Origin: Catellatospora paridis
Lineage (GTDB): Bacteria; Actinomycetota; Actinomycetes; Mycobacteriales; Micromonosporaceae
Length of the DNA stretch: 64,000 bases
Direction of reading: 5' to 3'
Assembly: GCF_009720365.1 (NCBI RefSeq)
Contig: NZ_ML769313.1
Span: 828,990 to 892,989, forward strand
Below are positions 468 to 39,851 of the stretch, piece by piece. The position numbers and the translations under genes are program-made. The notes under the pieces were generated by a model, which was not told the origin of the DNA, did not search any database, and was given only the letters and a program-made list of their open reading frames with translations. Each line of letters begins with the position of its first letter. The first letter of the stretch is position 1.

Positions 468-510
468 CTGGGGGTCAAGGGGTCGTCGGTTCGAATCCGG
501 CCAGCCCGAC
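468..510 (+). repeat. tRNA-Pro(GGG) 3'-half scar, copy 1
   Basis: These 43 bp match the 3' half of an actinobacterial tRNA-Pro with anticodon GGG. They begin at the anticodon loop (CTGGGGG), continue with the 3' anticodon strand TCAAG, a T-arm with TTCGAAT loop, and the acceptor 3' strand. The 5' half is absent, so it is not a tRNA gene. The same 43 bp recur at 5773-5815 and 39809-39851. A tRNA 3' end beginning at the anticodon loop is the usual core left by tyrosine-recombinase integration, so I infer an attachment-site scar. Confidence 0.8.
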
Positions 511-531
511 AGAACGAAATAGCAGGTCACG

Positions 532-559
532 GGCGGTTCCGGTACTTGCGGGAGCCGCC
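532..559 (+). terminator. Hairpin after tRNA scar copy 1
   Basis: A 9-bp stem (532-540 with 551-559, one G-T wobble) is followed by TTT. Scar copy 3 has a related stem at the same distance, so this is probably the native tRNA-Pro terminator carried with the scar. Confidence 0.6.
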
Positions 560-910
560 TTTGACGTTCTTCTGGACACGGTTTTTTTACACGTACGCGC
601 GTACGGTTTGGGCTCGTGTCGGGCGACCTGCTCGGTCCCGGAGTGCCTGCGACTGGCGTACCGCCCGCCCATGCCTGAACTGGATCTTTCTGTGCGCTAC
701 TTTGACCGGGGTGATGAACGCCTGACCCGCGCTGTTGTCTGGGACGTTGAGATGATCATGTGATTGCGTTCTACGCAAGTAATCGATGTATGCCGTTGTC
801 GAGCGTAGGGCCAATGTGGACTGTCAAGACACGCTCGAGACACCGTGTGGCCGCATCTCACCTGCTCCCGTGCCGTGGCGCTCTGGCGGTAAACCCGTGT
901 TGGCGCCATG

Positions 911-983
911 CCCGGTCAGAGCCGTCGGTACGAATCCGACCAGCGCGAGCACGCGAAGGATTTCCGCAGGTGACAGCCTGCGG
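911..983 (+). other. Decayed tRNA-like 3' end plus hairpin
   Basis: A canonical T-arm (stem GTCGG/CCGAC, loop TACGAAT, 924-940) is followed by an acceptor-like strand and a stem-loop CCGCAGG/CCTGCGG at 964-983. No matching 5' half, D-arm or anticodon arm can be folded upstream. The order GGTCA, T-arm, CCAGC resembles the tRNA-Pro scar but is diverged. I read it as another relic, possibly of a different tRNA. Confidence 0.4.
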
Positions 984-1202
984 GTGTCTCCTCTTGCGTG
1001 TGTGAACGCCCGGTGGGGCGGAGCACACCGCTTGTACACCGCAGCCAGACATCTTGACTCGGTGTGTGTTGTGCTCGGCTGGTTGCGGCACCGTCGCGGG
1101 AAGGGCCACCTGAGCCCAAGGGCGGATTGCCGGTCGCGAGTCGCGGCGCGCCGGACTACGGCCGCCCATCGCCGGCTGGCCACCCCCACAGCTGTGGCCG
1201 GG

Positions 1203-2030
1203 TCACGGCCACTGCGGCTGGAACGAGGTAATGACGTCGGTGCCCTCCTGGATCACGCCGTAGGTCGACTCCGGCACCGCGTTCCACGCGCCGGGTAGGT
1301 CGCCGAGCGGTTCGGAGACGACGAGCCGGCTCTCGTCCGAGACGTGCTGCAGCACGGCGACGTCCGGGTGGAGCTCGCGCAGCGTGGCGACGTTGGTGCT
1401 GTAGAACAGCGAGCGGGAGTCGCCGATCGACGAGTAGCGAAACGCCCACACCTTGACCCCGTCCGAAGTGGCGACCGTCATCTGGATCGGGTGTTCGATC
1501 CCGTGCTCGCGGCCGGTCTTCTCGACGAATCCGACCATGCGCGCCACGGCACTCGGCGGATCGTCGCGCAGTCCGAGGGTGAGCGCGAGGTAGAACATCA
1601 GCTCCGAGTCGGTGGAGCCCTCGATGAAGGGGTACAGCTGCGGGTCGACCCTCAGGACGAGATCGCGTTTGACGGTGGGAAAGGCGGCGATGGAGCCGTT
1701 GTGCATCCAGAGCCAGTTCTGGTACTGGAACGGGTGGCAGTTGCTCTCCTGAACCGGCGTACCGGTCGAGGCCCTGATGTGGGCGAGCACGATCGGCGCC
1801 CGAATGTGCGCGGCGAGGTTGCGCAGGTTGCGGTTGTTCCAGGCAGGACCGATGCCGTGGAAGACGCCTGGGTCGCCTCCCGTGTACCAGCCGACGCCGA
1901 AGCCGTCGCCGTTGGTCGTCTCGACACCGAGGGTGGCGTGCAGGCTCTGGTCGATCAAGGAATGCTTCGGCTTGTAGAGCAGGTCATCCAGGAGCAGGGG
2001 CGAGCCCGAGTAGGCAAGCCATCGGCACAT
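1203..2030 (-). CDS. Class II glutamine amidotransferase
   Basis: This 275-residue Ntn-type glutaminase domain resembles the stand-alone YafJ/EgtC group. It would hydrolyse glutamine to glutamate, passing ammonia to an unknown acceptor or releasing it. The protein starts Met-Cys (MCRWLAYSG), so Cys2 becomes the N-terminal nucleophile. NGDGFGVGWY lies at 40-49 and HNGSI at 110-114, both class II signatures. AGGAGG stands 7 nt before the start. The next gene upstream on this strand, 24 bp away, is a broken glutamate decarboxylase, so the pair may once have run glutamine to glutamate to GABA. The acceptor substrate cannot be told from sequence. Confidence 0.85.
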   Translation of the reverse strand: MCRWLAYSGSPLLLDDLLYKPKHSLIDQSLHATLGVETTNGDGFGVGWYTGGDPGVFHGIGPAWNNRNLRNLAAHIRAPIVLAHIRASTGTPVQESNCHPFQYQNWLWMHNGSIAAFPTVKRDLVLRVDPQLYPFIEGSTDSELMFYLALTLGLRDDPPSAVARMVGFVEKTGREHGIEHPIQMTVATSDGVKVWAFRYSSIGDSRSLFYSTNVATLRELHPDVAVLQHVSDESRLVVSEPLGDLPGAWNAVPESTYGVIQEGTDVITSFQPQWP

Positions 2031-2054
2031 GGTGTCCTCCTGCCGGTGGTCGGA

Positions 2055-2534
2055 TCAGTGATGGAACGCGGACGCCGTCTCGGGCGCGTGCTGCGGCCCG
2101 AATTGCGCGGCGAGTTCCGGCAGGTCGCTGCGGGCGACCGCCTCCTCGGCCGAGAGGTGGAAGCGGCCGCCCTCCACCGGTGCCATCCGGGGCTCGACCT
2201 CCCGGTGGTTGCAAATGTCCCAGCACACCTGCACATTGCCGCCCAAGTCATTGTCGATCATGTTCTTGGTGGCGCGCTCGGCCATGAGCAGCGTCGCCCG
2301 CGGTTCCATCCAGGTGGTGACGAAGGTGGCGAGGTTCAGGCGTGCGTTGCCGTCCAGCATCAGCTCGTCATGAATCAGTTGGTACGCGCCATCCGGCGGC
2401 GCCGGATCGTCCGGCAGCTCGTGCACCGGCAGCGCGACCTGCCGGCCGAGCGCCGGGTTCGCCGCCGAGACCACGGTGTTTCCCGCGTGGCGTCCGGACC
2501 GGTCACCTGGTCTTCTGCCTGTATGCAGTGCCAT
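2055..2534 (-). pseudogene. Glutamate decarboxylase remnant (internal deletion)
   Basis: The first about 100 codons read as the N-terminus of a PLP-dependent glutamate decarboxylase ([16 protein letters not shown], then TWMEP and KNMID). The frame then jumps to the segment around NVQVCWD and [12 protein letters not shown], which in GadB lies about 90 residues further on, and ends after a short unrelated tail at 160 residues. GadB is about 465 residues. The PLP-lysine region is absent, so no activity is expected. The frame itself is open, so the damage is by deletion rather than by stops. Confidence 0.75.
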
Positions 2535-4661: not shown

Positions 4662-4789
4662 CCGCGAAGCGTACCAACGCCGTTGCAACTGAGTGGACTC
4701 TCGTGAGCGCCCGGGTTGCAGTCGGCCGTCGCCGGCCGACGGTCCCCGCCTTGCCCACCGGGGTGGTGCGGGGTTGCCGCTTCGCTGCC

Positions 4790-5463
4790 ACCTTCCTTAC
4801 GCACGTACACAATGACCGCCTGTATACGATGTGGCGGCTGCTGCTGGTGACCGGGCTGCGCCGCGGCGAGCTGGCGGGCATGAAGTGGGAGGACTTCGAT
4901 TCGGCGACCGGGACGGTGCGTGTGGTGCGTCAGCGGGTGGTCGAGGGAGACGACAGCGTGGTTCGGGAGAAGCGGCCGAAGTCGCCGAACAGCGTTCGAA
5001 CGATCATGATCGACAAGGTCAGGGCCGAGATTCTCGGCTGGATGCGGCCAGCCGGTGGCAGCGCGTAGATGTTCACGGGGCGGACGAACATGCCCTTGCG
5101 GCCGGATAACATCACCGGCCGGTTCAACCAGTTGGCGGTTGCGGCAGGGGTACGGGCGGTCGGTCCGCACCAGGTCCGGCACATGCTCGGGTCGAGCCTG
5201 CAGGACTTCGGCTACGGCGTGCACGAGGTCGCCGAGCGTCTGGGGGCATGATCCGGCGACGTTCATGCGGGTACTACGCCCGGGTCAACGCGGTGCGCCG
5301 GCGGCGGGCCGCCGACGATGCCGCGGCGCTGGCAACCGGTCGGCTCGCGCTGGACGGCGCGACCGGGCCGTCGGCACCGACGATCCTTCATCAGCCATCG
5401 CGGCTGCGCAAGCGTCGCCGCACCCGGTCGGATGAACCGGGCGTCGGGGCCCCTCTGAAGTAG
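4790..5463 (+). pseudogene. Tyrosine recombinase (integrase) pseudogene
   Basis: The C-terminal catalytic half of a phage-type integrase. Catalytic Arg lies in TGLRRGE, the HxxR box is HQVRH, and the catalytic Tyr would be in RYYARVN. Three lesions break it: an in-frame TAG at 5066-5068 (expected a residue before FTGRTNMPLRPDN), an extra G near 5245 before HDPAT, and another extra G near 5268 before the YY. The N-terminal arm-binding domain is missing. It sits about 310 bp before tRNA-Pro scar copy 2, the usual place for the integrase of an element that targeted that tRNA. Confidence 0.8.
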
Positions 5464-5679
5464 ATGAGTCGCCGAACCGCCGACGCTGAAGATGCCGCGG
5501 CTCGGTCACGGACTGCTGCCGCTCACCGGAGCGATCGGCCCGTCGGCGCCGACGATCCCGCGGCAGCGGAAGCGGGCCGGCAACCACGACGGTAGCCTGG
5601 TCGGATGAATCCTTTTAGGGCGTTTCCAGAGTTGAGTTCAAGCCCGGCAGTCGTTTAAGCTGGGCAAACACGGCGCAGA

Positions 5680-5815
5680 AATGGTGCAATCACAGACCCC
5701 TTGACTGGGCCACTTTATACTTCTGGCGACCTCGGCAAATGTTGCCTAGTACACCGCTGACCCTCACGACAACTGGGGGTCAAGGGGTCGTCGGTTCGAA
5801 TCCGGCCAGCCCGAC
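5680..5815 (+). repeat. 136-bp att-like repeat, copy A (with tRNA-Pro scar copy 2)
   Basis: This matches 39716-39851 over the full 136 bp with about 10 mismatches. Its last 43 bp (5773-5815) are the tRNA-Pro(GGG) 3' half. The upstream part holds an inverted copy of the scar core (ACCCCTTGAC against GTCAAGGGGT) and a GGCAA/TTGCC dyad, as in integrase arm-site DNA. I infer an attR-like junction, element arm plus tRNA core, left by one of two related elements. Confidence 0.75.
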
Positions 5816-5822
5816 GCTGTGA

Positions 5823-5840
5823 CCTGCCTGTATAGGCAGG
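5823..5840 (+). terminator. Hairpin after scar copy 2
   Basis: CCTGCCT pairs with AGGCAGG across a 4-nt loop just downstream of the scar. It is unrelated to the hairpin behind copies 1 and 3, so the flank of this copy has been replaced. No T-run follows. Confidence 0.45.
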
Positions 5841-6149
5841 CCTACATGGCTTTGTGGATGGTCGTCGTTAGCACTGGTAGCGACGACCATCGCTGTTTTG
5901 GTAACAATTTTGCTCCCAAAAGGGATGTATCGTCGAGCTTGACGACCGATTTGATCTGATTGCGGCCTTCTGAGTTCGACCTCCTTGATCAATAGTCAAG
6001 TCGGCGTTCGCAGCCGCACTGGCGTGTCCGGGACGGCCGGGTGGCGCGAGCAGCGTCAGTGCGGCGCTGGCGACGGCCAGCACTGGTGACGGCCAGCACT
6101 GGCGCGGAGCCGTGCCGGTGACGGTAGGACTGTTGTGGGTGCCGTTGAG
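5841..6149. other. Intergenic, no gene seen
   Basis: About 310 bp between the scar and the first IS fragment. It is more AT-rich near 5850-6000 than its surroundings. I see no coding frame. Confidence 0.5.
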
Positions 6150-6308
6150 TTACTGGATCGGCGGCCGTGTTGAATCGGTGTCGGGGCGGGTCGGGGGCCA
6201 GATCGCGGTGGCGAGTTCGGCGAACGCCGTGGCGATCCGCCGGGCAGTCGGGATGTCGATCGCGATTTCGTAGTGCCTGCGGCGCAGGTTCCGCATGAAG
6301 GCATGCCC
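6150..6308 (-). pseudogene. IS6-type transposase C-terminal fragment
   Basis: Reading minus, GHAFMRNLRRRHYEI and about 35 further residues match the C-terminus of an IS6-family DDE transposase, including the helix that follows the catalytic Glu. It stops at 6150. The same region recurs on the plus strand at 6637-6746, so this is a second, inverted and diverged copy. Everything N-terminal to it is missing. Confidence 0.75.
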
Positions 6309-6746
6309 GGAGACGGGGTCCGGCGCTACGTCTACCGGGCCGTCGACCAGCGCGGGCAGGTCATCGACGTGCTCGTGTCCGCCCGCCGCGACGCCGACGC
6401 GGCCCGCAGGTTCTTCCGGCGGGCTCTTTCGACGTTGAAGGTGACACCGATCGAGGTCGTGATCGATGCCGCGGCGGTGTACCCGGCTGTGCTGGATGAA
6501 CTGGTTCCGCAGGCGTGGCATCACGTCGAACGCCATGCGAACAACCGGGTCGAGGCCGATCACAGCCACCTCAAGCACCGGTTGAGACCGATGCGCGGAC
6601 TCCAGACCGATAGGACCGCTCAGGTGATCATCGCTGGACATGCGTTCATGCAGAACCTGCGTCGCGGACACTACGAGATCGCCATCGACACCCCGCAGGC
6701 CCGGCGGGTCGCCGCGGCGTTTGCCGAACTCGCCAAGGCAGTCTGA
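6309..6746 (+). pseudogene. IS6-type transposase fragment, plus copy
   Basis: About 145 codons from RRYVYRAVDQ to the natural C-terminus. The first catalytic Asp region is cut off or at the very edge. The second Asp lies in EVVIDAAAVYPAV and the Glu in NNRVEADHSHLKHRL. The N-terminal helix-turn-helix is absent. It abuts the inverted minus-strand fragment within about 10 bp, so the two fragments diverge from one breakpoint near 6305. No terminal inverted repeats were recognised. Confidence 0.75.
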
Positions 6747-6804
6747 CCCGGCGCCGACCCGGGTTAACCATGCCCGGCGATCCGCGAACGCAACAGAGCC
6801 CCGC

Positions 6805-7191
6805 TCAGTCCCGCTTACGCAGCCTTTCCAAGAGCACCTCGACGTGACTCTCCGGGATATCCTTTACCGCTGTCAGCAACGTCACGGGACCGTCGCGTAG
6901 TGCCTCCCGCAGCTTCTGCAGGGCACCGCGTGCGGCCGGATTGTCCAATTCGGCGTCGAATTTGACGACGAATTCGGCGTGGTGGCTTTCCGGTGCCTCG
7001 TGGTACCAGTTGCGCAGGTCGTCTGAAGGTGTGAGTTCCTTCGGCCAGTCATCGATGTGGGCTCTCTCCTTGCTCAGCCCGCGCGGCCAGAGCCGATCCA
7101 CGAGCACCCGGCGGCCGTCGTCGGGCCACGGGTCTTCGTATACCCGTCGTGCCCGGAGGTTGTGCGTCGTGTCAGTGCGTCGAGGTGTCAT
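6805..7191 (-). CDS. DUF488 family protein
   Basis: A 128-residue protein of the DUF488 (YeaO-like) family. It has the family core RVYEDPWPDDGRRVLVDRLWPRG near the N-terminus and a conserved WYHEAPE. It is soluble and has no signal peptide. The biochemical role of the family is not established. It is followed on the same strand, upstream, by the aquaporin gene (149-bp gap), which may share a promoter. Confidence 0.85.
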   Translation of the reverse strand: MTPRRTDTTHNLRARRVYEDPWPDDGRRVLVDRLWPRGLSKERAHIDDWPKELTPSDDLRNWYHEAPESHHAEFVVKFDAELDNPAARGALQKLREALRDGPVTLLTAVKDIPESHVEVLLERLRKRD

Positions 7192-7339
7192 GGTCTTCTT
7201 TCTGTGCCGGGCGGCTCAGCTGTATGGCGGAGACGCGTCAAGCTCGCTGGTCAGTTGTACTTTCGGTGGCCGTGCAACGGTCGCCTTCCACGGGGTGGCA
7301 ACGCAGACGTCGAGATCCTTGTAGCCGCCTGGGCGCAAG

Positions 7340-8158
7340 TTACCGAGCTCGTTCCGCCTTGTTGGCGCCCGAGTCTGCAGAAACATCAGGTTGATGTCGG
7401 GCGGAATCCAGCCGGCTGCGCGTCAGGGCTGCGGCTGCCGCTCCCACGATCGGGGCGAGCAGGTACGCCCACCAGTCGGTCAAGCGTCCGGCGACGAGCA
7501 TCGGGCCGAGTGCCCGGGCGGGGTTCACTCCCGCGCCGGAGACCGGGCCGCTGATCAGGATGGCCACGCTCAGCGCCAGGCCGATTGACAGTGCGGTCAC
7601 GGCGGGGCCGGCCGGTGTGTCGATCACGACCGCCATGACGACCATCATGAGGATGAAGGTGGCCACCGCCTCGATCAGGAACACCCGGCCCACGTTGACG
7701 CCAGGCGCTGGTGCTGTCGCGCCGAGGCCGGCGTCCGTGCGGGCGCTTGGCCCGTACAGCACCCATGCGGCAAGCGCGGCCACGATCGATCCTGCGAACT
7801 GGGCGATGAGGTAGGCCGGGACTCTGGCCCAAGGAAATCTGTGGTCGATGGCCAGTGCGATGGTCACTGCTGGGTTGACGTGTGCTCCGGATAGCGCGCC
7901 GAGGCTGGCGACGATGATGAGAAGTGCGAAGCCGCCGGCCAGCGCGACGGTTTCGGAGCTGTAGGCCGCTCCGGCTACAGGCATGGTCAGGCTTGCGGTG
8001 ATCGCGACACCGATGATCGCCAGGACTAGCACAAAGGTTCCCACCGCTTCGGCACAGCAGGCGCGTATCAGGGCGCCGTCGAGCGGATGGCCGTGCAATC
8101 CGGTGTGGTGCGTGGGAGAGGCTGCTGTGGCAATGCTGTGTGGTGACATCGTCTTCAC
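7340..8158 (-). CDS. Aquaporin / MIP family channel
   Basis: A 272-residue integral membrane channel with six predicted helices and the two half-helix NPA motifs: GAHVNPAVT (NPA 95-97) and GAGVNPARALGP (NPA 212-214). It should pass water or small neutral solutes. Selectivity-filter residues cannot be set without alignment. The N-terminal 25 residues are His- and Thr-rich and cytosolic. The C-terminal tail after about 245 is charged. The gene is intact and lies upstream of the DUF488 gene. Confidence 0.9.
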   Translation of the reverse strand: MKTMSPHSIATAASPTHHTGLHGHPLDGALIRACCAEAVGTFVLVLAIIGVAITASLTMPVAGAAYSSETVALAGGFALLIIVASLGALSGAHVNPAVTIALAIDHRFPWARVPAYLIAQFAGSIVAALAAWVLYGPSARTDAGLGATAPAPGVNVGRVFLIEAVATFILMMVVMAVVIDTPAGPAVTALSIGLALSVAILISGPVSGAGVNPARALGPMLVAGRLTDWWAYLLAPIVGAAAAALTRSRLDSARHQPDVSADSGANKAERAR

Positions 8159-8356
8159 CTTTCACCCAGACCTCGCGTCGCACGCGTTCGGCAGCGGTGT
8201 ACACGCCGCGGGCCTGTCGCTGCCGGTTGACCGGCCGCGTCGACGGATCACGACTGGCACCTGGCTTGCGCGTCGCTGTCTGACCGGAGATGTCGCCGCA
8301 GTCCCGGGTCGGTTGATCGCCCCGGACTACGGCGACGTTCGCTGGTATGCGCCTGG

Positions 8357-9184
8357 TCAGCCCTTGATGAAGGCGAGCAGGTCGGCGTTGAACTCGTCCT
8401 GGTTGGTGGCGAACAGGCCGTGCGGTGCACCCTTGTAGATCTTGAAGGTGTTGTTCGGGATGAGCTTGGACGATTTCATGCCGGAGGCGACGATCGGCAC
8501 GATCTGGTCGTCGTCGCCCTGGATGATCAGCACCGGAACGTCGATCTTCTTGCAGTCCTCGGTGAGGTCGGTCTCGGAGAACGCCTTGATGCAGTCGTAG
8601 GCGGCCTTGAAGCCCAGCGTCATGCCCTGCAGCCAGAACTCGTCACGCAGGCCCTGGCTGACCTTGTTGCCCTCGCGGTTGGCTCCGAAGAACGGTGCGG
8701 ACAGGTCCTTCCAGAATTGCGACCGGTCGCGTTCGACTCCTTCGCGCAGGCCGTCGAAGACGCTGCGGGGCAGGCCTTCGGGGTTGGCGTCGGTCTTGAG
8801 CATCAGCGGCGGGATGGCGCCGACCAGTACGGCCTTGGAGACGCGGTCGGTGCCGTGCCGGCCCATGTAGCGGACGATTTCGCCGCCGCCGGTGGAGTGT
8901 CCGACCAGGACGATGTCGCGCAGGTCGAGCTTTTCGATGACGGCGGCGAGGTCGTCGGCGTAGGTGTTGAGGTCGTTGCCCTCCCACGGCTGGCTGGAGC
9001 GGCCGTGGCCGCGCCGGTCGTGGGACATTCCGCGGAAGCCGTTGGACACGACGTACCACATCTGGTCGTCCCAGGCGTCGGCCGTCAGCGGCCAGCCGTG
9101 ACTGAACACGATCGGTTGGCCTGTGCCCCAGTCCTTGTAGAAGATGTCGGTGCCGTCTTTGGTGGTAACCATTCCCGTGCTCAC
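8357..9184 (-). CDS. Alpha/beta hydrolase (non-heme chloroperoxidase type)
   Basis: A 275-residue alpha/beta hydrolase of the group annotated as non-heme chloroperoxidases or arylesterases. The nucleophile elbow is GHSTGG (Ser97), the acid sits in QGDDDQIVP and the His in GAPHGLF near the C-terminus. The oxyanion region is [11 protein letters not shown]. There is no signal peptide. Native activity is probably ester or lactone hydrolysis, with perhydrolysis as a side reaction, as known for the family. It is a single gene. Confidence 0.9.
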
Positions 9185-30987: not shown

Positions 30988-31602
30988 TCAGCGCATCGCG
31001 ATCTCGCCCGTGTTGACGGCACGCATAGCCCGCTCGACGGTCTCCTCGCGTTCGCCGACCGGTGCCACGTAGCCGATGACGTCGCGCGCGGCGTCCGGTC
31101 CGAGCGTTCGGGTGATCACCCAGGTGGCCAGATACTGCGACGCCAGGCAGCCACCCGCTGTAGCGATGTTTCCCTCAGCGTGGAACGGCGCGTCCAGCAC
31201 GGTGACGCCGCACGCCTCGACAAAGGGCCGGCTCACCATGTCCGTGCAGGCCGGCATGGCACCCAGCAGCCCGAGGCGCGCCAGCACGAGCGCTCCGGAG
31301 CACTGCGAACCGATCAGTTGCCGCGAAGGGTCGAGCGCCAGCATGGACAGCAGCCGGTCGTCGGCGACCACGTCGCGTGTCTTGACCCCGCTGCCGATCA
31401 GCACGACATCGGCCTCGGTCGCGAATTCCATCGGGCGCTGCCCGCTCACCTCGACGCCGTTCATCGACGTGACCACCGGCGTCGGCGTCGTGATGAAGGC
31501 CGCCAAGCCGTCCTTACGGCACCGGTTGATCAGCGCGGAAGCGATGAAGCTGTCGAGCTCGTTGAACCCGTCGAAGGTGACCACGGCAACCTGCATAACC
31601 AC
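30988..31602 (-). CDS. DJ-1/PfpI family protein
   Basis: A 204-residue class I glutamine amidotransferase-like fold. The nucleophile elbow is GSQCSGALVLARLG (Cys about 100). GFNELDSFIASALI near the N-terminus carries the conserved Glu. A domain with FHAEGNIATAGGCLAS follows. Members include transcription regulators, isonitrile hydratases and glyoxalases; without an AraC domain this is an enzyme-type member. Divergent from the epoxide hydrolase gene. Confidence 0.85.
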   Translation of the reverse strand: MVMQVAVVTFDGFNELDSFIASALINRCRKDGLAAFITTPTPVVTSMNGVEVSGQRPMEFATEADVVLIGSGVKTRDVVADDRLLSMLALDPSRQLIGSQCSGALVLARLGLLGAMPACTDMVSRPFVEACGVTVLDAPFHAEGNIATAGGCLASQYLATWVITRTLGPDAARDVIGYVAPVGEREETVERAMRAVNTGEIAMR

Positions 31603-31896
31603 TCCTCATGTACGGCATCCGATGGTCAGGCTGCCTGATGCGCCACCGCGGGGCGAGAACCAATCAGCGGCTGGTGGCCTCCTTACGGCAGGCCGGCGCC
31701 GCAGCGGGTTGGAGGGGCAGGTACCGCGCCCCCGGATCGCGTCCTCGGAGCAGGTCAAGTCGTTGCCTGAAGTGCGAGGTTCTGGCATGGACTTGGCGTC
31801 GGCGGCGCATATCGACCAATGTGGGACGTGCTGCATGCCAGCCCGGCCTACCTAGCCGTGCTTCGCGATCTGGTGGCGGATTTCGTAGGGGATCGT

Positions 31897-32886
31897 ATGG
31901 CGGGCGACGTCCAGCACAGGTACGTCACGGTCAACGGCGTCAGGCTGCACGTCGCCGAACAGGGCACCGGCCCGCTGGTTGTGCTGCTGCACGGATTCCC
32001 GGAGAGCTGGTACTCGTGGCGGCACCAGTTCGGCCCACTGGCTGCGGCCGGCTACCGCGCCGTCGCTCCTGACCAGCGTGGATACGCCCGCAGCGAGCAG
32101 CCCGAAGCCGTCGAGGCCTACAGCCTGCTCCACCTCGCCGGCGACGTCATCGGGCTCATCGACGCGCTCGGGGAGCAGACAGCGGTGCTCGTCGGCCACG
32201 ACTGGGGCGCACCGGTCGCCTGGGTGACGGCGATGCTTCGCCCCGACGTCGTACGGGCGGTGGCGGGACTGAGCGTCCCGCCTGTGCTACCCGCAGGGAT
32301 GACCCCGCCGTCGGCGACCCGCAAGAAGTTCGGCGACGGCTACTACCAGGTCGTCTTTCAGCAACCCGGGGTCGCCGACGCCATGCTGGCCCGAGACCCG
32401 GCGACCACATTCCGCCGGTTGCTGGTCGGCGCCTCAGGCGACAGCCCGTCCAGCGATCCGCCCCGCCCGTGGATCGTCCCCGACGGTGGCACGCTCCTGG
32501 ACGTGATGCCTGAGCCGACGCGACTGCCGGGCTGGCTCACCGACGACGACATCGAAGCCTTCGTCGGCGACTACGCCATTCACGGCGACCGGGCCTTCAC
32601 GGGCGGCCTGAACTGGTACCGCAACATCGAACGGAACTGGGAACTGCTCGCGGCGTTCCGCGGCCGCCGGATCGAGGTGCCGGCTCTCTACATCGCCGGA
32701 GGCCGCGACATGGTTGTCGGCCTACGTGGCGTCGAGGCCACGTTGAACGCTGTCGAGCAGGCTGCGCCACGGTTGTGGCGTGCCCGGATCCTGCCCGGCT
32801 GCGGCCATTGGACCCAGCAGGAACGCCCCGAGGAGGTCAACCGGGAACTCCTGGACTTCCTTACATGGCTGTCCACCACACCATGA
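31897..32886 (+). CDS. Epoxide hydrolase-like alpha/beta hydrolase
   Basis: About 329 residues from ATG 31897 (GGGGAT upstream); a longer frame opens at 31819. HGFPESWYSWRHQ is the oxyanion HGxP motif. GHDWGAPVAW carries an Asp nucleophile, as in epoxide hydrolases and haloalkane dehalogenases. The acid is in AGGRDMVV and the His in GCGHWTQQERP. A cap domain with Tyr residues (WYRNIERNWELL) supports epoxide hydrolase. Soluble, single gene. Confidence 0.88.
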   Translation: MAGDVQHRYVTVNGVRLHVAEQGTGPLVVLLHGFPESWYSWRHQFGPLAAAGYRAVAPDQRGYARSEQPEAVEAYSLLHLAGDVIGLIDALGEQTAVLVGHDWGAPVAWVTAMLRPDVVRAVAGLSVPPVLPAGMTPPSATRKKFGDGYYQVVFQQPGVADAMLARDPATTFRRLLVGASGDSPSSDPPRPWIVPDGGTLLDVMPEPTRLPGWLTDDDIEAFVGDYAIHGDRAFTGGLNWYRNIERNWELLAAFRGRRIEVPALYIAGGRDMVVGLRGVEATLNAVEQAAPRLWRARILPGCGHWTQQERPEEVNRELLDFLTWLSTTP

Positions 32887-33032
32887 TCGACCCCTATCCG
32901 AACACCGCCCCGACCAGCGGGCACTGTGCCGGTTTGCCGAGTGGGTCCCCTGAACGGGCCCAACCGTGGCGAGGACTCCGGCACGTTGGCGACCAGTACG
33001 CCGCAGCGCCCCGCCAGGCGAAGGAGTGAACG

Positions 33033-33461
33033 ATGCCCACCGTGCGCGGCCGGTCGGACTGGAGCGGGACGCTCCAGGACGGTGCCGGAACAATCTCCAC
33101 CACGAGCGGCACCCTCGACGCCGTGCCATACACGTATGCGAGTCGGTTCGAGGGGGCCGAGGGGGCATGCCCGGAAGAGCTGTTGGCAGCGGCCTACGCT
33201 GCCTGCTACAACCAGGCCCTGTCCAACATCTCCGGCAAGGAGGGCTCCCAGATCGCCTCGGTGAGCACGGCAGCGGACGTGACCACGGGCGTTGGTGACC
33301 GAGGCCCGGCCATCGTCGCCGTGCACCTCACAGTCGAGGCGAAGGCCCCCGGGATGTCACAGCGAGTCTTCCAGCACCTGGCCGAACAGGCTCGCATCCG
33401 CTGTGCGTTCTCGAAAGTGCTCGTCATCGAACCGACCATGAACGCGAATCTGATGCCCTAA
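33033..33461 (+). CDS. OsmC family peroxiredoxin
   Basis: A 142-residue OsmC/Ohr-like thiol peroxidase. PEELLAAAYAACYNQAL has the first Cys and IRCAFSKVL the second. The Arg pair is less clear. The N-terminal WSGTLQDGAGTISTTSG is typical of OsmC rather than Ohr. AAGGAG stands upstream. It probably reduces organic hydroperoxides. The MarR gene follows after 337 bp, but their coupling is uncertain. Confidence 0.9.
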   Translation: MPTVRGRSDWSGTLQDGAGTISTTSGTLDAVPYTYASRFEGAEGACPEELLAAAYAACYNQALSNISGKEGSQIASVSTAADVTTGVGDRGPAIVAVHLTVEAKAPGMSQRVFQHLAEQARIRCAFSKVLVIEPTMNANLMP

Positions 33462-33798
33462 CTGCGTTATCCCCAGTCCTCGACCTCACCTTGGTACTGG
33501 GCCCGCGGCAGGAGCACGCCGACTGCGCCTTGATGCCGCCGACACGTGCCGGAGGCTCGATGGCAAGTAAGGCGCTCTTGGCCGCCAACCCGCCGAGCGG
33601 GGGTGTCCTCGAGGGTCAGTGATCGCCGACCCTCGCAGCCACCGGTCAGCGCACGCCGACGGAGTATCCACCGCACCTGGATGGACGAGGGCCAGGCCAT
33701 TGGCGCTGCGTACTGATACTCGCAGGTCGGGGGTGGGCGGTTCGCTGCGGAAGATCCAAATGTGACACGTGAACGTTCACGTCAGTTAGACTCCGGGC
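33462..33798. other. Intergenic with marR operator
   Basis: Holds the perfect palindrome at 33767-33782 close to the marR start. I see no other structure or gene in it. Confidence 0.5.
33767..33782. promoter_or_regulatory. GAACGTTC palindrome, operator 1
   Basis: A perfect 16-bp palindrome ACGTGAACGTTCACGT, 17 bp before the marR start. It shares the core TGAACGTTCA with the two palindromes upstream of the FMN reductase at 38.7 kb. Confidence 0.75.
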
Positions 33799-34287
33799 AT
33801 GCCTGAACAGCCTCCACGCCCGAACGATCAGCCGCGCTGGCTGACCGCGGCGGAGCTGGAGACATGGCAGCAATTCGCCCTGATGATGCACAAGCTGCCC
33901 ATTGCCCTGGAAGCGCAACTGCAGCAGGACGCGGGCCTTAGCTACGTCGAGTACTACGTCCTCGCCGGACTGTCCGACCAGCCAGGACGGCGCATGCGCA
34001 TGAGCGGCCTGGCCGTGCTCGCCAACGCTGAGCTGTCCCGTCTCTCCCACATGATCAGCAGGCTGGAGCGCCGGGGTTTCGTCCGCCGCGAACCAGACCC
34101 CACCAATGGCCGCTACACCCATGCGATCCTGACCGAAGCCGGTCAGGCCCATCTCGCCGAGGCCGCCCCGGGGCACGTGGCTCGGGTACGGGACCTGGTC
34201 TTCGAGGTTCTCGACCCCGCCGAGCTGGACACTCTGCGCACCGCTGCCGAGAAGATCAGCGAGAGGATCGACCGCCGGGAGCAGTAG
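33799..34287 (+). CDS. MarR family regulator
   Basis: A 162-residue MarR protein. SYVEYYVLAGLSDQPG, then MSGLAVLANAELSRLSHMISRLERRGFV (recognition helix) and a wing DPTNGRYTHAILT. It probably autoregulates through the palindrome in its promoter and may also bind the related palindromes at 38.7 kb. No conserved Cys for oxidant sensing is seen. Confidence 0.9.
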   Translation: MPEQPPRPNDQPRWLTAAELETWQQFALMMHKLPIALEAQLQQDAGLSYVEYYVLAGLSDQPGRRMRMSGLAVLANAELSRLSHMISRLERRGFVRREPDPTNGRYTHAILTEAGQAHLAEAAPGHVARVRDLVFEVLDPAELDTLRTAAEKISERIDRREQ

Positions 34288-34561
34288 ACCTTTCCTCGCA
34301 CGGACACCGCCCTTCAGGTGCCACAGCGCAACGCCGGGCCATGAGGGGCCTCGATGGGAGCGAGGCCGGGCATCCGGCGTCCGGCGTGCGATCGCGGCCG
34401 TGTCGCGACCCCCGGGGCGGAATCCGTAGTCGCGGTCGCCTCGTAGGGACACTGACGCCGCAGCACCCCTGGTCACGGGCAACGATACGATCTGGAACGA
34501 AGCTTCGTCCCTTTGAGACACCGCCTCCCACCTGAGCGGTCGGGGTTTCGGCAAGGTCGGG

Positions 34562-35434
34562 TCAGACGGTGATGTCGGCGGTGATGCCGGCGAACAGGTC
34601 GTCCTCGGGCAGCCGAGTGTCGACCAGCGAGTGGGCCAGCTCGTACTCCTCGGTCGGCCAGACCTCGCGCTGGACGTCGAGCGGCACCCGGAACCACGGG
34701 CCGTCCGGGTCGATCTGCGTGGAGTGGGCGAGCAGCGCCCGGTCGCGCACGTCGAACCAGTCGGCGCACTGCACCCGGGTGGTGAACTCGCGCTCGGTGA
34801 GGCCGTCCTCGTCCCAGACGGCGATCCACTCGCCGAAGGGGGACTCTTGCCCGTGTTCCACGAGGTAGGCGTGGAGCACGCGGATCCGGGCCATCGACAT
34901 GCCGTGGTTGTAGTACACCTTCAGCGGCTGCCAGGGCTGGCCGGACTCCGGGTAGGCGTCGGGGTCGCCGGCCGCCTCGAAGGCCGCCATCGTGATCTTG
35001 TGGGTCATGATGTGGTCGGGGTGCGGGTAGCCGCCGTTCTCGTCGTACGTGGTGATCACGTGCGGACGGAACTGCCGGATCAGCCGGACCAGCGGCTCGG
35101 CCGCCTTCTCCAGCGGCACCAGCGCGAAGCAACCGGCGGGCAGCGGGTCGCCCTCCGGCATGCCGGAGTCGACGAACCCCAGCCAGGCCTGCTGGACGCC
35201 CAGGATCTCGCGGGCGGCGTCCATCTCCCTGCGCCGCACCTCGTGGATGTTGGCCGCGATCTTCGGGTCGCCTTGGAGCTTCGGGTTGAGAATGGAACCT
35301 CGCTCGCCCCCGGTGCAGGTGGCCACCAGCACGTCCACGCCCTGGGCGACGTACTTCGCCATGCTGGCGGCGCCCTTACTGGACTCGTCGTCCGGGTGTG
35401 CGTGGACCGCCATCAATCGCAACTGCTCTGTCAA
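34562..35434 (-). CDS. mca: Mycothiol S-conjugate amidase Mca
   Basis: A zinc amidase that cleaves mycothiol S-conjugates to mercapturic acids and GlcN-inositol. VHAHPDDES (zinc His and Asp, residues 11-16 from the TTG start) and GGYPHPDHIMTH give the metal site; GGERGS and RVQCADWFDVRD are typical. I chose TTG 35434 with AGGAAC 7 nt upstream. A longer frame begins ATG 35452. Length about 290, as in actinobacterial Mca. It shows that the host makes mycothiol. The MFS gene lies 107 bp upstream on the same strand. Confidence 0.93.
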   Translation of the reverse strand: MTEQLRLMAVHAHPDDESSKGAASMAKYVAQGVDVLVATCTGGERGSILNPKLQGDPKIAANIHEVRRREMDAAREILGVQQAWLGFVDSGMPEGDPLPAGCFALVPLEKAAEPLVRLIRQFRPHVITTYDENGGYPHPDHIMTHKITMAAFEAAGDPDAYPESGQPWQPLKVYYNHGMSMARIRVLHAYLVEHGQESPFGEWIAVWDEDGLTEREFTTRVQCADWFDVRDRALLAHSTQIDPDGPWFRVPLDVQREVWPTEEYELAHSLVDTRLPEDDLFAGITADITV

Positions 35435-35541
35435 TGTTTGTTCCTTCCGCATTGCCCCGCTGCGGGGGCGGGAGACTCAGGAGTCGTGGCGCGGCGTCCC
35501 GCCTCACCCCCACGACAGGCTTCGTCAGGGGACCTGGTGCA

Positions 35542-37050
35542 TCAGTGGGCGAGCAGCGGCACCGCCGCCTCGTCCTCGGCGTGTTCGTGGTCCGTACGGC
35601 CGACGTCGACCAGGGACAGGACGACCAGCGTGGCGATCACGAGCATGCCGATGGCGAACCAGATGGCGGTGCTGTAGCCGTGCACCACGCCCTGCAGCTG
35701 GACCAGCTGCTGCTGCGGGTTCGTCGCGGCGTCGGCGATGTGGTCCCGGACGTACGAGGTCGTCACGGACGTGGCGATGGTGTTCAGCAGGGCTGTGCCG
35801 ATCGCGCCGCCCACCTGCTGCGAGGTGTTGACCATCGCGGACGCGACGCCAGCATCGCGGGGCTCGACGCCCGCAGTGGCCAGCGACATGGCAGGCATGA
35901 AGGTCATGCCCATGCCGAGACCGAGCAGCGCCAGAGCCGGCAGGACGGTCGAGGCGTAGGACGAGCGGATCTCCATCTGCGCGAGCAGGAACATGCCGGA
36001 CGCGGCCACCAGGTAGCCGGCACCCATCAGAAACCGGGCCGGAACGCGGGTCATCAGACGCGGCCCGATCTGCGTCGAGCCGATCATCATGCCCGCCACC
36101 ATCGGCAGGAAGCAGAACCCGCTCATGATCGGCGAGTAGCCTTTTACGACCTGCAGGTAGTAGGTCAGGAACAAGAAGGTGCCGAAGATGGCGATGACCG
36201 CGAGGGCGAGGGAGAGGTAGACGCCGCCGCGGTTGCGGTCGGTGACCACTCGCAGGGGCAGCAGTGGTGCCTTGACCCGGGCCTCGGTGATGACGAAGGC
36301 GAGCAGCAGGACCACCCCACCGCCCAACAGGGAGAGGGTCGTGCTGTCGCCCCAGCCGTGGGACTCGGCGTAGTTGAAGCCGTAGACCAGGCAGGTCAGG
36401 GCCAGGGTGGACAGGACCACGCCGGGGATGTCGAGCGGGGAGCGGTTGCGGCTGCTGGCGGGCTCGCGGATGACGAAGTAGGCGCCGGCCGCCGCGGCGA
36501 TGGCGAACGGGATGTTGACGTAGAACGTCCAGCGCCAGTCCAGGTACTCGGTGAGCGCACCGCCGAGGATGAAGCCGACGGCGCTGCCGCCGCCGGCGAT
36601 CGCGCCGTAGATGCCGAACGCCTTGGCGCGTTCCTTGGCGTCGGTGAACATCACGGCGAGCAGTGAGAGCGCGGCGGGGGCGAGCAGGGCGCCGAAGGCG
36701 CCTTGGAGGGCGCGGGCGCCGAACATCATGGTGCCGGTGGTCGCCGCGCCGCCGAGCGCGGAGGCGGCGGCGAACCCGATCAGGCCTATGACGAAGGCGC
36801 GCTTGCGGCCCCACAGGTCGGCCACCCGGCCGCCGAACAGGACCAGGCCGCCGAAGGCCAGCGCGTAGGCGGTGACGACCCACTGCCGGTCGCCGTCGGA
36901 GATACCCAGCTCCTGCTGGGCGGAGGGCAGGGCGATGTTCACGATTGTGGCGTCGAGGACGACGATCAGCTGGGCGAGGGCGATGAAGACGAGCGCTTTC
37001 CAACGCTCGGCGTGCGCGTCGCTGGCAGCTTTGAGGGCTGTGCGAGACAT
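35542..37050 (-). CDS. MFS drug efflux transporter, DHA2 (14-TMS)
   Basis: A 502-residue transporter of the EmrB/QacA group. LDATIVNIALPSAQQELG in helix 1, motif A GGRVADLWGRKRAF and motif C-like AIAGGGSAVGFILGGALTE are visible, with about 14 helices in all. The start is the Met of MSRTALK. An Asp/Glu-rich short tail follows. It probably exports hydrophobic drugs. Its neighbour mca detoxifies mycothiol adducts, so export of mercapturates is an attractive but unproven link. Confidence 0.92.
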   Translation of the reverse strand: MSRTALKAASDAHAERWKALVFIALAQLIVVLDATIVNIALPSAQQELGISDGDRQWVVTAYALAFGGLVLFGGRVADLWGRKRAFVIGLIGFAAASALGGAATTGTMMFGARALQGAFGALLAPAALSLLAVMFTDAKERAKAFGIYGAIAGGGSAVGFILGGALTEYLDWRWTFYVNIPFAIAAAAGAYFVIREPASSRNRSPLDIPGVVLSTLALTCLVYGFNYAESHGWGDSTTLSLLGGGVVLLLAFVITEARVKAPLLPLRVVTDRNRGGVYLSLALAVIAIFGTFLFLTYYLQVVKGYSPIMSGFCFLPMVAGMMIGSTQIGPRLMTRVPARFLMGAGYLVAASGMFLLAQMEIRSSYASTVLPALALLGLGMGMTFMPAMSLATAGVEPRDAGVASAMVNTSQQVGGAIGTALLNTIATSVTTSYVRDHIADAATNPQQQLVQLQGVVHGYSTAIWFAIGMLVIATLVVLSLVDVGRTDHEHAEDEAAVPLLAH

Positions 37051-37420
37051 GGGGGTATCCACTTCGTTACTTCGTGAGGAATTGGCTGGCTGAAGGTGCC
37101 TGAGGACGTGCATCGAAGGGATCACCGCACCCGCTCGTGTCGCAGGACGCTGGGGAGATCAGGCCCCGATTGCATGGTCAGGGCGCCAGGTCGATGATGC
37201 GGACCGGCTGGCTCGCTGAGGGGCCGCCGGGCGGAAAGGCATCCGCCGGGCCGACCGTCCTCGATCGGGAGTCGGCGAAGAGTGCGGGTCCCGGAACCTG
37301 ACCCATGTCCGTTCCGGGACACCGCCTGCTCCGGCTGTCGCCGTACCAGCCCGCACGGTGGCGATCCGAAGTGCGTGGTGGCTCAGCGGCGACCGGCATC
37401 GCGGTTGCGCTGACCGATGG
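37051..37420. other. Intergenic, no gene seen
   Basis: 370 bp between the transporter start and the 3' end of the DUF6069 gene. I see only short overlapping frames on both strands. Confidence 0.5.
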
Positions 37421-37831
37421 TCAAGGCTTGCGTCGGCTGAAGGTGGAGATCAGCACGGCGGCGACCGCGACGTGCATCAGCGCCAGGATCGTCTTGGTTG
37501 CCCCGGTTGCCGAGAAGACGAACAGGGGCATGAAGGACACCAACAGCACCAATACGGCAAGCACGGTCCACATGACCGATGCCTTGCGGGTGAACCGGTC
37601 CAGCAGCGCCCGGGCACCCCAGCCGAGCAGGCTGACGACGAGCGTGAACGTGACGGTGAGCGGCAGGCTGACCGCAGAGGGCGCCTGGCCGTTGCCGGGG
37701 TCGACGACCAGGCCGATATCCAGAATCTGGGCGGCCGTCCAGAGCAGCGCAGCGGCCAGGACGGCACCGCCGACCGTGAGAGCGCCGACGCGCAGCCGCG
37801 AGGCCGGCGGGGAGACGGAAGTGTCAGTCAT
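37421..37831 (-). CDS. DUF6069 family membrane protein
   Basis: About 136 residues with four hydrophobic helices (VGGAVLAAALLWTAAQIL, PLTVTFTLVVSLLGWGA, VMWTVLAVLVLLVSFMPLFVF and ILALMHVAVAAVLI). It matches the DUF6069 pattern; function unknown. I chose the ATG with AAGGAG 7 nt upstream. The alternative ATG 37846 overlaps the stop of the dehydrogenase remnant upstream (ATGA), suggesting they were once an operon. Confidence 0.82.
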   Translation of the reverse strand: MTDTSVSPPASRLRVGALTVGGAVLAAALLWTAAQILDIGLVVDPGNGQAPSAVSLPLTVTFTLVVSLLGWGARALLDRFTRKASVMWTVLAVLVLLVSFMPLFVFSATGATKTILALMHVAVAAVLISTFSRRKP

Positions 37832-37842
37832 CAGGGACTCCT

Positions 37843-37965
37843 TCATGGAACGAGGATGATCTTGCCGCCGGTGCGGCCGGACCCGGCGTCGCGGTGTACC
37901 CGCGCCGCCGAGTCGGTGGGCGGACGGGCCGCGGTGGTGTCGACCCGGACGGCGCCGTCCGCCTG
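37843..37965 (-). pseudogene. C-terminal scrap of an MDR dehydrogenase
   Basis: About 40 codons read LQADGAVRVDTTAA, then DSAARVHRD and TGGKIILVP with a natural stop. This is the C-terminus of a quinone oxidoreductase-type dehydrogenase. The rest of the gene is gone and its 5' edge runs into a terminator hairpin. Too short for its own function. Confidence 0.65.
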
Positions 37966-37976
37966 AAGGCGGACGG
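37955..37976 (-). terminator. Hairpin downstream of FMN reductase (distal)
   Basis: A 9-10 bp stem CCGTCCGCC/GGCGGACGG with a tiny loop. It lies in the 3' region of the reductase gene and overlaps the 5' edge of the dehydrogenase scrap. Confidence 0.6.
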
Positions 37977-37985
37977 GTTTCCCGT

Positions 37986-38005
37986 CGCCTGCCTTCCGGC
38001 AGGCG
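37986..38005 (-). terminator. Terminator downstream of FMN reductase
   Basis: A perfect 8-bp stem CGCCTGCC/GGCAGGCG with a 4-nt loop, 7 bp after the reductase stop. Confidence 0.75.
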
Positions 38006-38011
38006 AGGGCG

Positions 38012-38575
38012 TCAAACCCGGACGGTCTTGAGGGCGCGGGTCCAGGACTCCAGCTGGTCGAACAGGATGGTCGCCGCGGCGTCGTGCTGCGGAGCCGGCT
38101 TGAAGACGGAGAAGTGCTCGAAGTCCGTGAACAGCGAGAAGGACAGCTGCTGACGTACGTGGGCCAGCTGCAGTTCGCTGGCCACGGTCCGCAGGTGCTC
38201 GATGGCCCGAGCTCCGCCGAGGGAACCGTACGAGACGAAGGCGGCGGCCTTGTTGTTCCACTCGCCGTACAGGTAGTCGATCGCGTTCTTGAGCACCCCG
38301 GAGGTGGAGTGGTTGTACTCGGGGGTCACGAAGACGTACCCGTCGAACTCGGCGATCTTGGACGCCCACGCCTTGGTGTGCTCACCCCGGTACTGGCCCA
38401 TGGCCGGTGGCATGGCCTCGTCCAGGTGGGGCAGCGGGAAGTCGGCGAGGTCGACCAGCTCGTACTCGGCGCCGGTGCGGGCGCCGGACTGGCCCATCAC
38501 CCAGTCCGCGACGGCCTTGCCGTTGCGGCCGGGCCGGGTGCTGCCGAGAATGACGGCAATCTTGAGGTCACTCAT
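38012..38575 (-). CDS. NADPH-dependent FMN reductase
   Basis: A 187-residue flavodoxin-like reductase. LGSTRPGRNGKAVADW is the FMN phosphate loop and TPEYNHSTSGVLKNAIDYL the flavin-contacting PEYN motif. Members reduce quinones, azo dyes or flavins. The start is the Met of MSDLKIAV. Two GAACGTTC palindromes lie upstream and strong terminators downstream. It is probably a stress-inducible quinone reductase under a MarR-type repressor. Confidence 0.9.
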   Translation of the reverse strand: MSDLKIAVILGSTRPGRNGKAVADWVMGQSGARTGAEYELVDLADFPLPHLDEAMPPAMGQYRGEHTKAWASKIAEFDGYVFVTPEYNHSTSGVLKNAIDYLYGEWNNKAAAFVSYGSLGGARAIEHLRTVASELQLAHVRQQLSFSLFTDFEHFSVFKPAPQHDAAATILFDQLESWTRALKTVRV

Positions 38576-38680
38576 GCGGTTCTCTCCTTGCTGGGCCGGC
38601 TGGCCAGTGTGAGGCCGGCCGACGGATTGCATGGCCGGCGGGTCGTGCGTTGAGCCGGTACCGACCCGCGCCACAGACTT

Positions 38681-38698
38681 CACTTGAACGTTCAAGTG
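38681..38698. promoter_or_regulatory. GAACGTTC palindrome, operator 2
   Basis: A perfect 18-bp palindrome CACTTGAACGTTCAAGTG, 106 bp before the FMN reductase start. Confidence 0.75.
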
Positions 38699-38715
38699 TC
38701 AGCTTAGCATCAACG

Positions 38716-38729
38716 CTTGAACGTTCAAG
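38716..38729. promoter_or_regulatory. GAACGTTC palindrome, operator 3
   Basis: A perfect 14-bp palindrome CTTGAACGTTCAAG centred 33 bp (about three helical turns) from operator 2, so two dimers could bind on one face. Confidence 0.75.
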
Positions 38730-38823
38730 GGTGAGGTGCGACTCGTGACCGTGGTGGCGGCGGCTGGACGCTGACGAAGCAAAGGCCCACGGCTCGGCGC
38801 GCCACGCCACCCGACGGGCACCC

Positions 38824-39154
38824 GGCACGCTGGTCATCAACCTCGACGGCGCCGCGGCCCTGCGCCAAGCCGTCGCCCTGGAAGCCGGAGGCGACGCCGA
38901 CAGACTCCTGGCCGCCCTCGACCAGGCGGGCCGAGCCACCGTCATCGCGCTGCGCGGGAAGGCCATGCCCTCAGACAACCGCCCGCTACGCGGCAGCCGG
39001 TCACGCAGCCGTCGGCATCGGCATGGGGATGCCCAGCTACCAGACCCCGGCCGAAACCCCCGACCGCGTCGACCCCGCAACCCTGGCCGCAGCAGCCCGG
39101 CTGGTCGTCGCCACGTTTGAGCATCTCGCCACGACGGAAACAGCGTGCACATGA
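38824..39154 (+). pseudogene. Small unknown gene, frameshifted
   Basis: GTLVINLDGAAALRQAVALE and AGRATVIAL read in one register to about 38955. Another register from about 38984 gives YAAAGHAAVGIGMGMPSYQT and ATLAAAARLVVATFEHLATTE to a TGA at 39154. Both parts have convincing composition, so one gene with an indel near 38950-38984 is likely. Its stop overlaps the ATG of the next small frame (ATGA). I do not recognise the family. Confidence 0.45.
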
Positions 39155-39586
39155 GCAGGCAATACTTCGTCATTTACGGCCCCGGCGCGACGTCGCGGGT
39201 ACCCTGCATCCTGCATCCTGCATCCTGCTGCCGCAAGCGCCAGCCTGCAGCTAGACCGCAACGCGGCGCGGACAGCGAGCCAACTGGCAGCTCTCGGCCA
39301 TGCCGTCAGCATCGCCACCGACCTCGTCGTCGTGCCGGGGCGGGGGGCCGAGTTGCCAATCGAGGACCTGCTGGAGTTGTTGGCCTCTGCATGCCGCGTC
39401 GTTCCGAGCCGGAGGCATCCACACCAGACCCTTTGGGCTGCACGCACCGGCGGCGGCCTGCCCTGGCATGAGCGAGGGTTCAGTCAGTTTGACTGGGCCG
39501 TCACCGTAGTGGCCGGAGGGCGTGAACGCTGGTGCGAATGCGCCGTAGTACAGCGCTTCAAATTCGGTCATGGTGCGTTTCGTTGA
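39151..39586 (+). pseudogene. Small unknown gene switched out of frame by 7-bp repeats
   Basis: The ATG at 39151 opens MSRQYFVIYGPGATSRVP, then meets three CCTGCAT units. Beyond them the register with good composition (LDRNAARTASQLAALGHAV, LPIEDLLELLASACRVV, WAVTVVAGGRERWCECAVV) is shifted by one base. Removing one 7-bp unit would join both parts into a 143-residue protein. It may be a phase-off gene or a slipped pseudogene. No family recognised. Confidence 0.45.
39203..39228 (+). repeat. 7-bp tandem repeat CCTGCAT x3
   Basis: Three perfect units (39203-39223) and a partial fourth (CCTGC). The unit length is not a multiple of three, so changes in unit number shift the reading frame. Confidence 0.85.
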
Positions 39587-39715
39587 CGCAGGCGCTTCAG
39601 GGTTTGCAACCCGCCAATTCGGCGCCCACCGTTATTTCAAATTGTCCATTTTGTCATGCGGTGATCAGCTATCCTGAATGCGGATGTGCCGTGAACTGGG
39701 TCAACGTGGTGCTGG

Positions 39716-39851
39716 AATGGTGCAATCACAGACCCCTTGACTGGGGTACTTTATACTTCTGGCGACCTCGGCAAACGTTGCCTAGTGCACCGCTGACCCT
39801 TTATATACCTGGGGGTCAAGGGGTCGTCGGTTCGAATCCGGCCAGCCCGAC
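39716..39851 (+). repeat. 136-bp att-like repeat, copy B (with tRNA-Pro scar copy 3)
   Basis: This is the partner of 5680-5815, of the same length and with about 10 differences, six of them in an 8-bp patch just before the core. The last 43 bp (39809-39851) are the tRNA-Pro(GGG) 3' half, identical to copies 1 and 2. The inverted arm GACCCCTTGAC versus GTCAAGGGGTC is intact here. Confidence 0.8.

Follow-up and report, generated by a model that had tools for sequence, protein, structure and literature searches.

Why should a stretch of chromosome carry the same half of a tRNA gene three times, each time without its other half? The question is raised by a 64-kb window from Catellatospora paridis (by "window" we mean the whole stretch analysed, C2:828990-892989 in a draft genome of 9 Mb and 35 contigs), in which three copies of the 3′ half of a tRNA-Pro(GGG) gene, here called A, B and C, lie in the same orientation on the forward strand (Table 1). 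An earlier note on this DNA had taken them for attR-type junctions left by successive integrations at one tRNA gene. We followed the copies through 11 genomes of the genus Catellatospora, namely the window's own genome (G000) and ten relatives (G001-G010), and the reading gains support from their recurrence in the genus, from breakpoints placed in the anticodon loop, from flanks that reassort, and from an integrase relic at B. Comparison of these sequences makes it very probable that A, B and C are scars of successive site-specific, integrase-mediated integrations at tRNA-Pro(GGG).

Anatomy of the tRNA-Pro halves and their recurrence in the genus

The three copies are identical over 43 bp, an exact repeat whose chance of arising in 64 kb at 69% G+C is about 1e-14. 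This core starts at the first anticodon-loop base (loop CTGGGGG) and extends through the 3′ end of the tRNA; it differs in one base from the corresponding part of the intact tRNA-Pro(GGG) gene, which lies on contig C5 of the same genome. The 5′ half is absent at all three copies, as the earlier note had it: 9, 5 and 6 of its 33 positions match at A, B and C, respectively, and ARAGORN reports zero tRNA genes within the window. The note had further given the same 93-bp upstream arm to B and C alone. Those two arms are indeed related but not identical (83/93 bases, with six of the ten differences within the 8 bases adjoining the core), and copy A has an arm of its own, overlooked before, which recurs ahead of further tRNA-Pro scars, both here and in relatives. 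On the right, A and C share one flank class (R2), and B has a different one.

Stretches totalling 1.95 Mb, fetched from all 11 genomes, yielded 33 core sites: each genome has one intact gene, and another 22 copies, spread over nine of the genomes, lack the 5′ half. The point at which the tRNA sequence ceases is almost invariant: leftward of the core, 18 of the 22 scars share zero bases with the tRNA 5′ half, three share one, and one shares three. Besides A, B and C, the window's own genome has 3′-half scars at C5:50.3 kb, C5:47.1 kb and C11:289.5 kb. The layout is seen most fully in G006, a single contig in which the intact gene at 5191954 is followed by scars 21 and 148 kb downstream; G004, G008 and G010 repeat this order of intact tRNA and then scars over shorter ranges. 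The core is tied to integrases, and integrase adjacency, breakpoints and flank classes together speak against a dispersed repeat with variable ends and no integrase context. Outside Catellatospora, the tRNA-Pro core with one of its arms (the Y arm, below) is present in Hamadaea tsunoensis. A single match in a "Bacteroidetes MAG" lacks the remainder of the tRNA half and resembles a chance match.

Clustering of the flanks (100 bp to the left and 70 bp to the right of the core) separated eight left and eight right classes, which occur in 21 combinations. The Y arm (class L2, found at B and C) and the X arm (class L3, found at A) both occur beside several different right flanks, and the common right flanks in turn are each found beside several arms. 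Among the 11 intact genes there are five 3′-flank classes, as expected where each arriving element replaces the end of the gene. A terminator-like hairpin lies no more than 65 nt past the tRNA end at 27 of the 33 sites, compared with 8 of 300 random stretches; the test asked for a folding z below -1.5 plus at least four T in 8 bases within that distance, thresholds that we set ourselves. Copy B fails it but has a hairpin a little farther out, and copy A passes the folding test without being picked up by a simple terminator scan. We infer that the elements bring a terminator together with the 3′ half, a function assigned here from the predicted hairpins.

The integrases point the same way. In G010, an intact 395-aa tyrosine integrase stops about 166 bp ahead of the core, next to the same arm as at B. 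The relic in the window has 53% identity to residues 180-395 of this protein, rising to 71% over 94 residues. Throughout the genus, the C-terminus of a Y integrase lies within 310 bp of, and is directed at, 8 of the 16 Y arms, whose inner motif, GACCCCTTGACTGGGG, is similar to the tRNA anticodon arm. The 5.3-kb A-B interval ends as does a 23-kb element of G010, with an R2 flank on one side and Y integrase plus Y arm on the other, and its cargo includes a P450 and other metabolic genes; it reads as the decayed remnant of what would be one Y-class element, its integrase relic still beside B. Next to the tRNA of G007 lies an integrase of a second family (401 aa), together with an excisionase-like HTH_17 protein, a DUF3631 protein and an FtsK-like protein (PHROG only, E 2.2e-21), and a relic of this family sits beside the tRNA in G004. 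Since the window offers only an integrase relic among the genes scanned, we do not file its remnants as actinomycete integrative and conjugative elements (AICEs).

The same part of the gene occurs in phage genomes. Its 43 positions are found at about 88% in 22 phage records, including Giles and phiLM21; vectors based on Giles integrate near the 3′ end of tRNAPro (PMC11551767), and the anticodon stem-loop is a recognised region of integration, its 7-bp loop matching the overlap (PMC8371274). A phage origin of the Y elements themselves was rejected, as IMG/VR holds neither a match to the exact pattern of Y arm plus core nor a relative of the Y integrase; the core alone matched three IMG/VR contigs. 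In the plasmid collection, the integrase fragment had no match at 1e-8.

We envision the following course. The attachment site of an element would consist of a tRNA-Pro 3′ half, from the 7-nt anticodon loop (CTGGGGG) onward, followed by the element's own terminator-like hairpin. Crossover by the integrase within the loop would hand the element's 3′ half and terminator to the host gene, and the old 3′ half would be displaced outward, behind the other arm of the element. Repeated rounds would build a ladder of scars, each composed of an arm, a 3′ half and an older flank, and later decay, deletion or rearrangement of the elements would leave what is now seen as A, B and C. Which integrase may have cut at each step, and the order of the events, are our reconstruction.

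Separation from the tRNA gene and rival origins

The earlier note proposed looking for an intact tRNA-Pro(GGG) to the left of the window. ARAGORN finds no tRNA in the 40 kb on that side, and the intact gene lies at C5:63333-63407, on a different contig from A-C. A second tRNA-Pro(GGG) gene is part of an eight-tRNA cluster at G000:C12:52.5-53.7 kb. The 20 kb left of the window has pieces that match all 11 genomes; one of them is about 54 kb downstream of the tRNA in G007, and in G002 the corresponding block is about 0.8 Mb from the tRNA, if the contig is circular. Judged by these matches, the region of window and tRNA is rearranged between species, and a later rearrangement has probably carried the ladder A-C away from the intact gene, although a misassembly may also have produced the separation.

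Several observations weigh against successive integration at this gene. In a whole-genome search, contig C2 holds three tRNA-Pro copies only, and A-C are therefore tied to the tRNA on C5 by sequence and not by position. No intact element or integrase gene is recognised in the window, searches with three integrases gave no match at copy C, and at the other 8 of the 16 Y arms no Y integrase lies within 310 bp. Left flanks are singletons in 5 of the 22 scars. G002 has no scar with a core, and in G007 the arms have only truncated cores behind them. The count of core sites is a lower bound, at least one extra copy (G003:C105) lying outside the fetched stretches, and neither an excised form nor an empty site was observed among the genomes compared.

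The array could instead have formed by integration at a secondary, non-tRNA site on C2, with no rearrangement after integration at the tRNA. Junctions of an arm with a partial core do exist at non-tRNA sites, for example at a site about 105 bp downstream of the tRNA (Y arm in G007, W arm in G004). We nonetheless regard such an origin as unlikely, since A, B and C keep the full 3′ half on the target-derived side, which a non-tRNA target could not supply, and since the scars of G006 (one contig) and G007 (two contigs) lie 16-148 kb downstream of the tRNA itself, those of G007 being truncated.

The 34 kb between B and C had been proposed as one accretion unit, in other words as a genomic island accreted whole at a tRNA half. 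Both of its ends are core scars with Y arms, and at least its right part can evidently move as a block: 31.0-39.5 kb keeps its order in G009:C8 (111-123 kb), a contig with a scar of its own, and G002 has 31.0-38.6 kb likewise collinear at 219-226 kb. Smaller blocks, then, do travel. When the interval was searched in two halves (6.8-23.1 and 23.1-39.7 kb, E up to 1e-60) against the 11 genomes, however, neither half was held whole by any of the ten relatives; the pieces lie at several loci, and in part as a second copy within the same genome. The stretch at 13.4-15.8 kb matches G002 at 7.92 Mb, distant from the 31-38.6 kb block of that genome, and this stretch and 21.8-23.05 kb, 6 kb apart in the window, have adjacent second copies at 91-93% on G000:C1:84986-88634. 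Copy C has no integrase match, the right flank of B is a singleton class, and a Pfam scan of part of the called genes found no integrase or transfer gene in the interval. Accretion as one island is accordingly quite improbable, and the B-C interval is, by these alignments, a mosaic and no single unit. By the earlier note, syntenic conservation of the whole first 40 kb with all three scars, throughout a genus, would speak against integration; searched in two pieces, 6.8-39.7 kb occurs as a block in none of the ten relatives (0-6.8 kb was compared with the stretches fetched up to that point).

Spread of the tRNA fragment by segmental duplication or insertion sequences (ISs), without an integrase, is hardly credible: IS stretches are frequent near the scars and the genomes are rearranged, yet 18 of 22 breakpoints fall at one anticodon-loop base, left and right flanks exchange independently, integrase relics adjoin the arms, and the same 43-position span occurs in phage genomes.

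The 5′ side of the tRNA gene

Mirror images of these scars were found in three of the 11 genomes, where an orphan tRNA-Pro 5′ half with its upstream region ends at CTGGGGG and is followed by a common non-tRNA arm, called W. The orphans lie upstream of the intact gene and in the same orientation, at distances of 188 kb (G000), 57 kb (G001) and 19 kb (G006), and the duplicated module takes in 39 nt of the tRNA and about 320 bp of the sequence ahead of it. On the upstream side of the orphans, synteny between G001 and G006 extends over segments of 3.5, 0.86 and 1.7 kb (89-94%). Ahead of the intact genes, matches of at least 500 bp consist of a common IS, a 0.69-kb match between G000 and G005 (an integrase end plus the tRNA upstream region), and single matches of 0.5-0.9 kb between G002 and G010, G007 and G008, and G008 and G010. 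This comparison covered 45 kb, less in G003, G005, G008, G009 and on the orphan side of G001, and the 45 kb of G006 include its own orphan region. Such a pattern is the trace expected of an element that carries a 5′ half.

The stretch at G000:C5 63.4-251.8 kb bears both marks of the 5′ type, with an orphan 5′ half at one end and, at the other, the intact gene with the duplicated 5′ part; G001 and G006 show the same two marks. A scan of 20 of its 135 called genes found integrases, WD40/STAND proteins, a DNA polymerase III alpha gene and, at C5:133-137 kb, VirB4-like and coupling-protein-like genes, and a 20-kb section (C5:80-100 kb) has a match in one other genome of the genus only, at 1e-60. 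We interpret the stretch as a putative conjugative island. In G000, an intact 384-aa integrase, V, stops some 420 bp short of the tRNA on its upstream side, and G005 has a relic of it in this position. We did not accept V as the proven agent of the 5′-type events, since 12 of 30 loci with relatives of V lie next to tRNA-Val, in the usual orientation (17 have no tRNA within about 1.5 kb, and the last is that of G000 itself).

Taken together, these observations suggest that tRNA-Pro(GGG) might be a two-sided docking site, at which one class of elements would bring a 3′ half with a terminator and another a 5′ half with about 320 bp of upstream sequence, both through the same 7-nt loop, and the 188-kb stretch of G000 would be one element of the 5′ type. 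We put this forward tentatively, and hold it a little less probable than its contrary. No integrase was identified for the W arm and the kin of V sit at tRNA-Val, both of which count against a 5′-type origin; duplication of the tRNA by another route is a possible source of the mirror scars.

Further use of the region is suggested by one downstream flank class, in which the 5′ part and the anticodon arm of the tRNA recur in degenerate form about 105 bp past the gene. Sequence like the right side of this second site follows a Y arm in G007, and in G004 the left side stands ahead of the W arm. At least the truncated core of G007 accordingly reads as an integration at the second site, a reading that does not cover those of G003 and G005.

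Relation to known systems and further features of the window

Accretion at tRNA genes is already established, and the finding in the window is thus a known phenomenon at a new locus. The AICEs and defective AICEs at tRNA-Arg of Streptomyces, as described in PMC9513070, likewise show different integrases stacked, identical direct repeats and a decayed remnant, whereas the Catellatospora scars are found across species of the genus, mostly bare, reassorted in their flanks on both sides, located at tRNA-Pro(GGG) and broken in the anticodon loop. At ssrA of Dehalococcoides, direct repeats of the 3′ end of the RNA gene occur within 100 kb downstream, with metabolic cargo and with islands that do or do not have an integration module, much as here; that system combines a serine recombinase with tmRNA, and the Catellatospora one tyrosine recombinases with tRNA-Pro (PMC3146451). 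Tandem AICEs of Frankia and S. avermitilis are also actinobacterial elements integrated in tRNA genes; they reside at tRNA-Lys and tRNA-Arg and in Frankia excise singly or together, whereas those of Catellatospora are relics (PMC3218068). Literature searches on Catellatospora genomic islands, or on tRNA and integrase in this genus, returned matches that appeared unrelated from the listings.

Integration of the 5′ type is described as considerably rarer (PMC6563490), and the 5′ part of a tRNA gene is used by elements in Zhao and Williams 2002 (cited in PMC6563490) and by pTN3-like archaeal integrases (PMC8371274). The mirror scars of the three Catellatospora genomes would belong with such elements (PMC6563490, PMC8371274). 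In 5′-type elements, the restored tRNA is described as expressed from the integrase promoter (PMC8371274); in Catellatospora, about 320 bp of the upstream region are duplicated as well. The new part would be the two-sided use of one crossover, which we did not meet in the literature, in searches not aimed at excluding it. Were it true, integrations of the 3′ and 5′ types could be compared at a single crossover, and the intact tRNA genes would be chimeras with both halves, promoter region and terminator derived from mobile elements, every part renewable. On the 3′ side, puzzling repeats become a readable record of insertion, according to which metabolic and mobile genes would have kept gathering at one tRNA gene over a long time in most Catellatospora species, and the reassorting flanks amount to a natural experiment on which attachment arms and terminators are interchangeable.

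Table 1. Features of the window and related sites in other contigs and genomes. Plain ranges are window positions.
Feature	Location	Strand	Basis or remark
X-class (L3) left arm of A	355..467	+	78-84% identity to arms G000:C5:50314-50426, G005:C23:66804, G006:5340308, G007:736802
Copy A, 43-bp tRNA-Pro(GGG) 3′ half	468..510	+	no 5′ half
R2-class right flank of A with hairpin	511..609	+	flank clustering; folding z -3.2; simple terminator scan lists none
Y-class tyrosine integrase relic (C-terminal part, interrupted), pointing at B	4784..5605	+	PF00589, E 2.8e-6; internal stop
Y-class (L2) arm of B	5680..5772	+	flank clustering
Copy B, 43-bp tRNA-Pro 3′ half	5773..5815	+	exact repeat
R7 right flank of B (singleton class) with terminator-like hairpin 5857-5891	5816..5900	+	clustering, hairpin scan
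IS with DDE_Tnp_IS240 transposase fragment (open reading frame 6303-6746), just past B	6131..6801	+	PF13610, 2.6e-38
B-C interval, mosaic, mainly metabolic and regulatory genes	6802..39715		Pfam; pieces at several loci in relatives
Y-class (L2) arm of C	39716..39808	+	flank clustering
Copy C, 43-bp tRNA-Pro 3′ half	39809..39851	+	exact repeat
R2-class right flank of C with terminator-like hairpin 39870-39903	39852..39950	+	clustering, folding, terminator scan
Block right of C	40410..63716		pieces in G006 5192250-5212533, 75-90% identity, locally rearranged
Mirror scars	G000:C5:251.72-251.87 kb; G001:C54:14.3 kb; G006:C1:5172.9 kb		
Second anticodon-arm-like inverted repeat	G000:C5:63.2 kb, 51.5 kb; G004:1011.9 kb; G007:738.9 kb		about 105 bp past the tRNA; apparent secondary attachment site

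The IS just past B has similar stretches in G000:C5, G004, G007 and G009. To the right of C, 40.4-63.7 kb has its counterparts, in pieces, in the G006 stretch that runs from the tRNA to the first Y scar, so that this block is itself cargo of the hotspot; its far scar is missing here, where C2 has three copies only, and 50.3-52.3 kb within it matches outside the G006 stretch. A 570-aa protein with a Cas12f1-like TNB domain (TnpB-like) is encoded at window positions 50622-52334 (+), and similar DNA is found in the hotspot stretches of G003, G005 and G006. Within the B-C interval, a 450-aa open reading frame at 27931-29283 (-) joins a BrkB-type membrane domain to a SnoaL-like domain, either as a fusion or as an artefact of gene calling.

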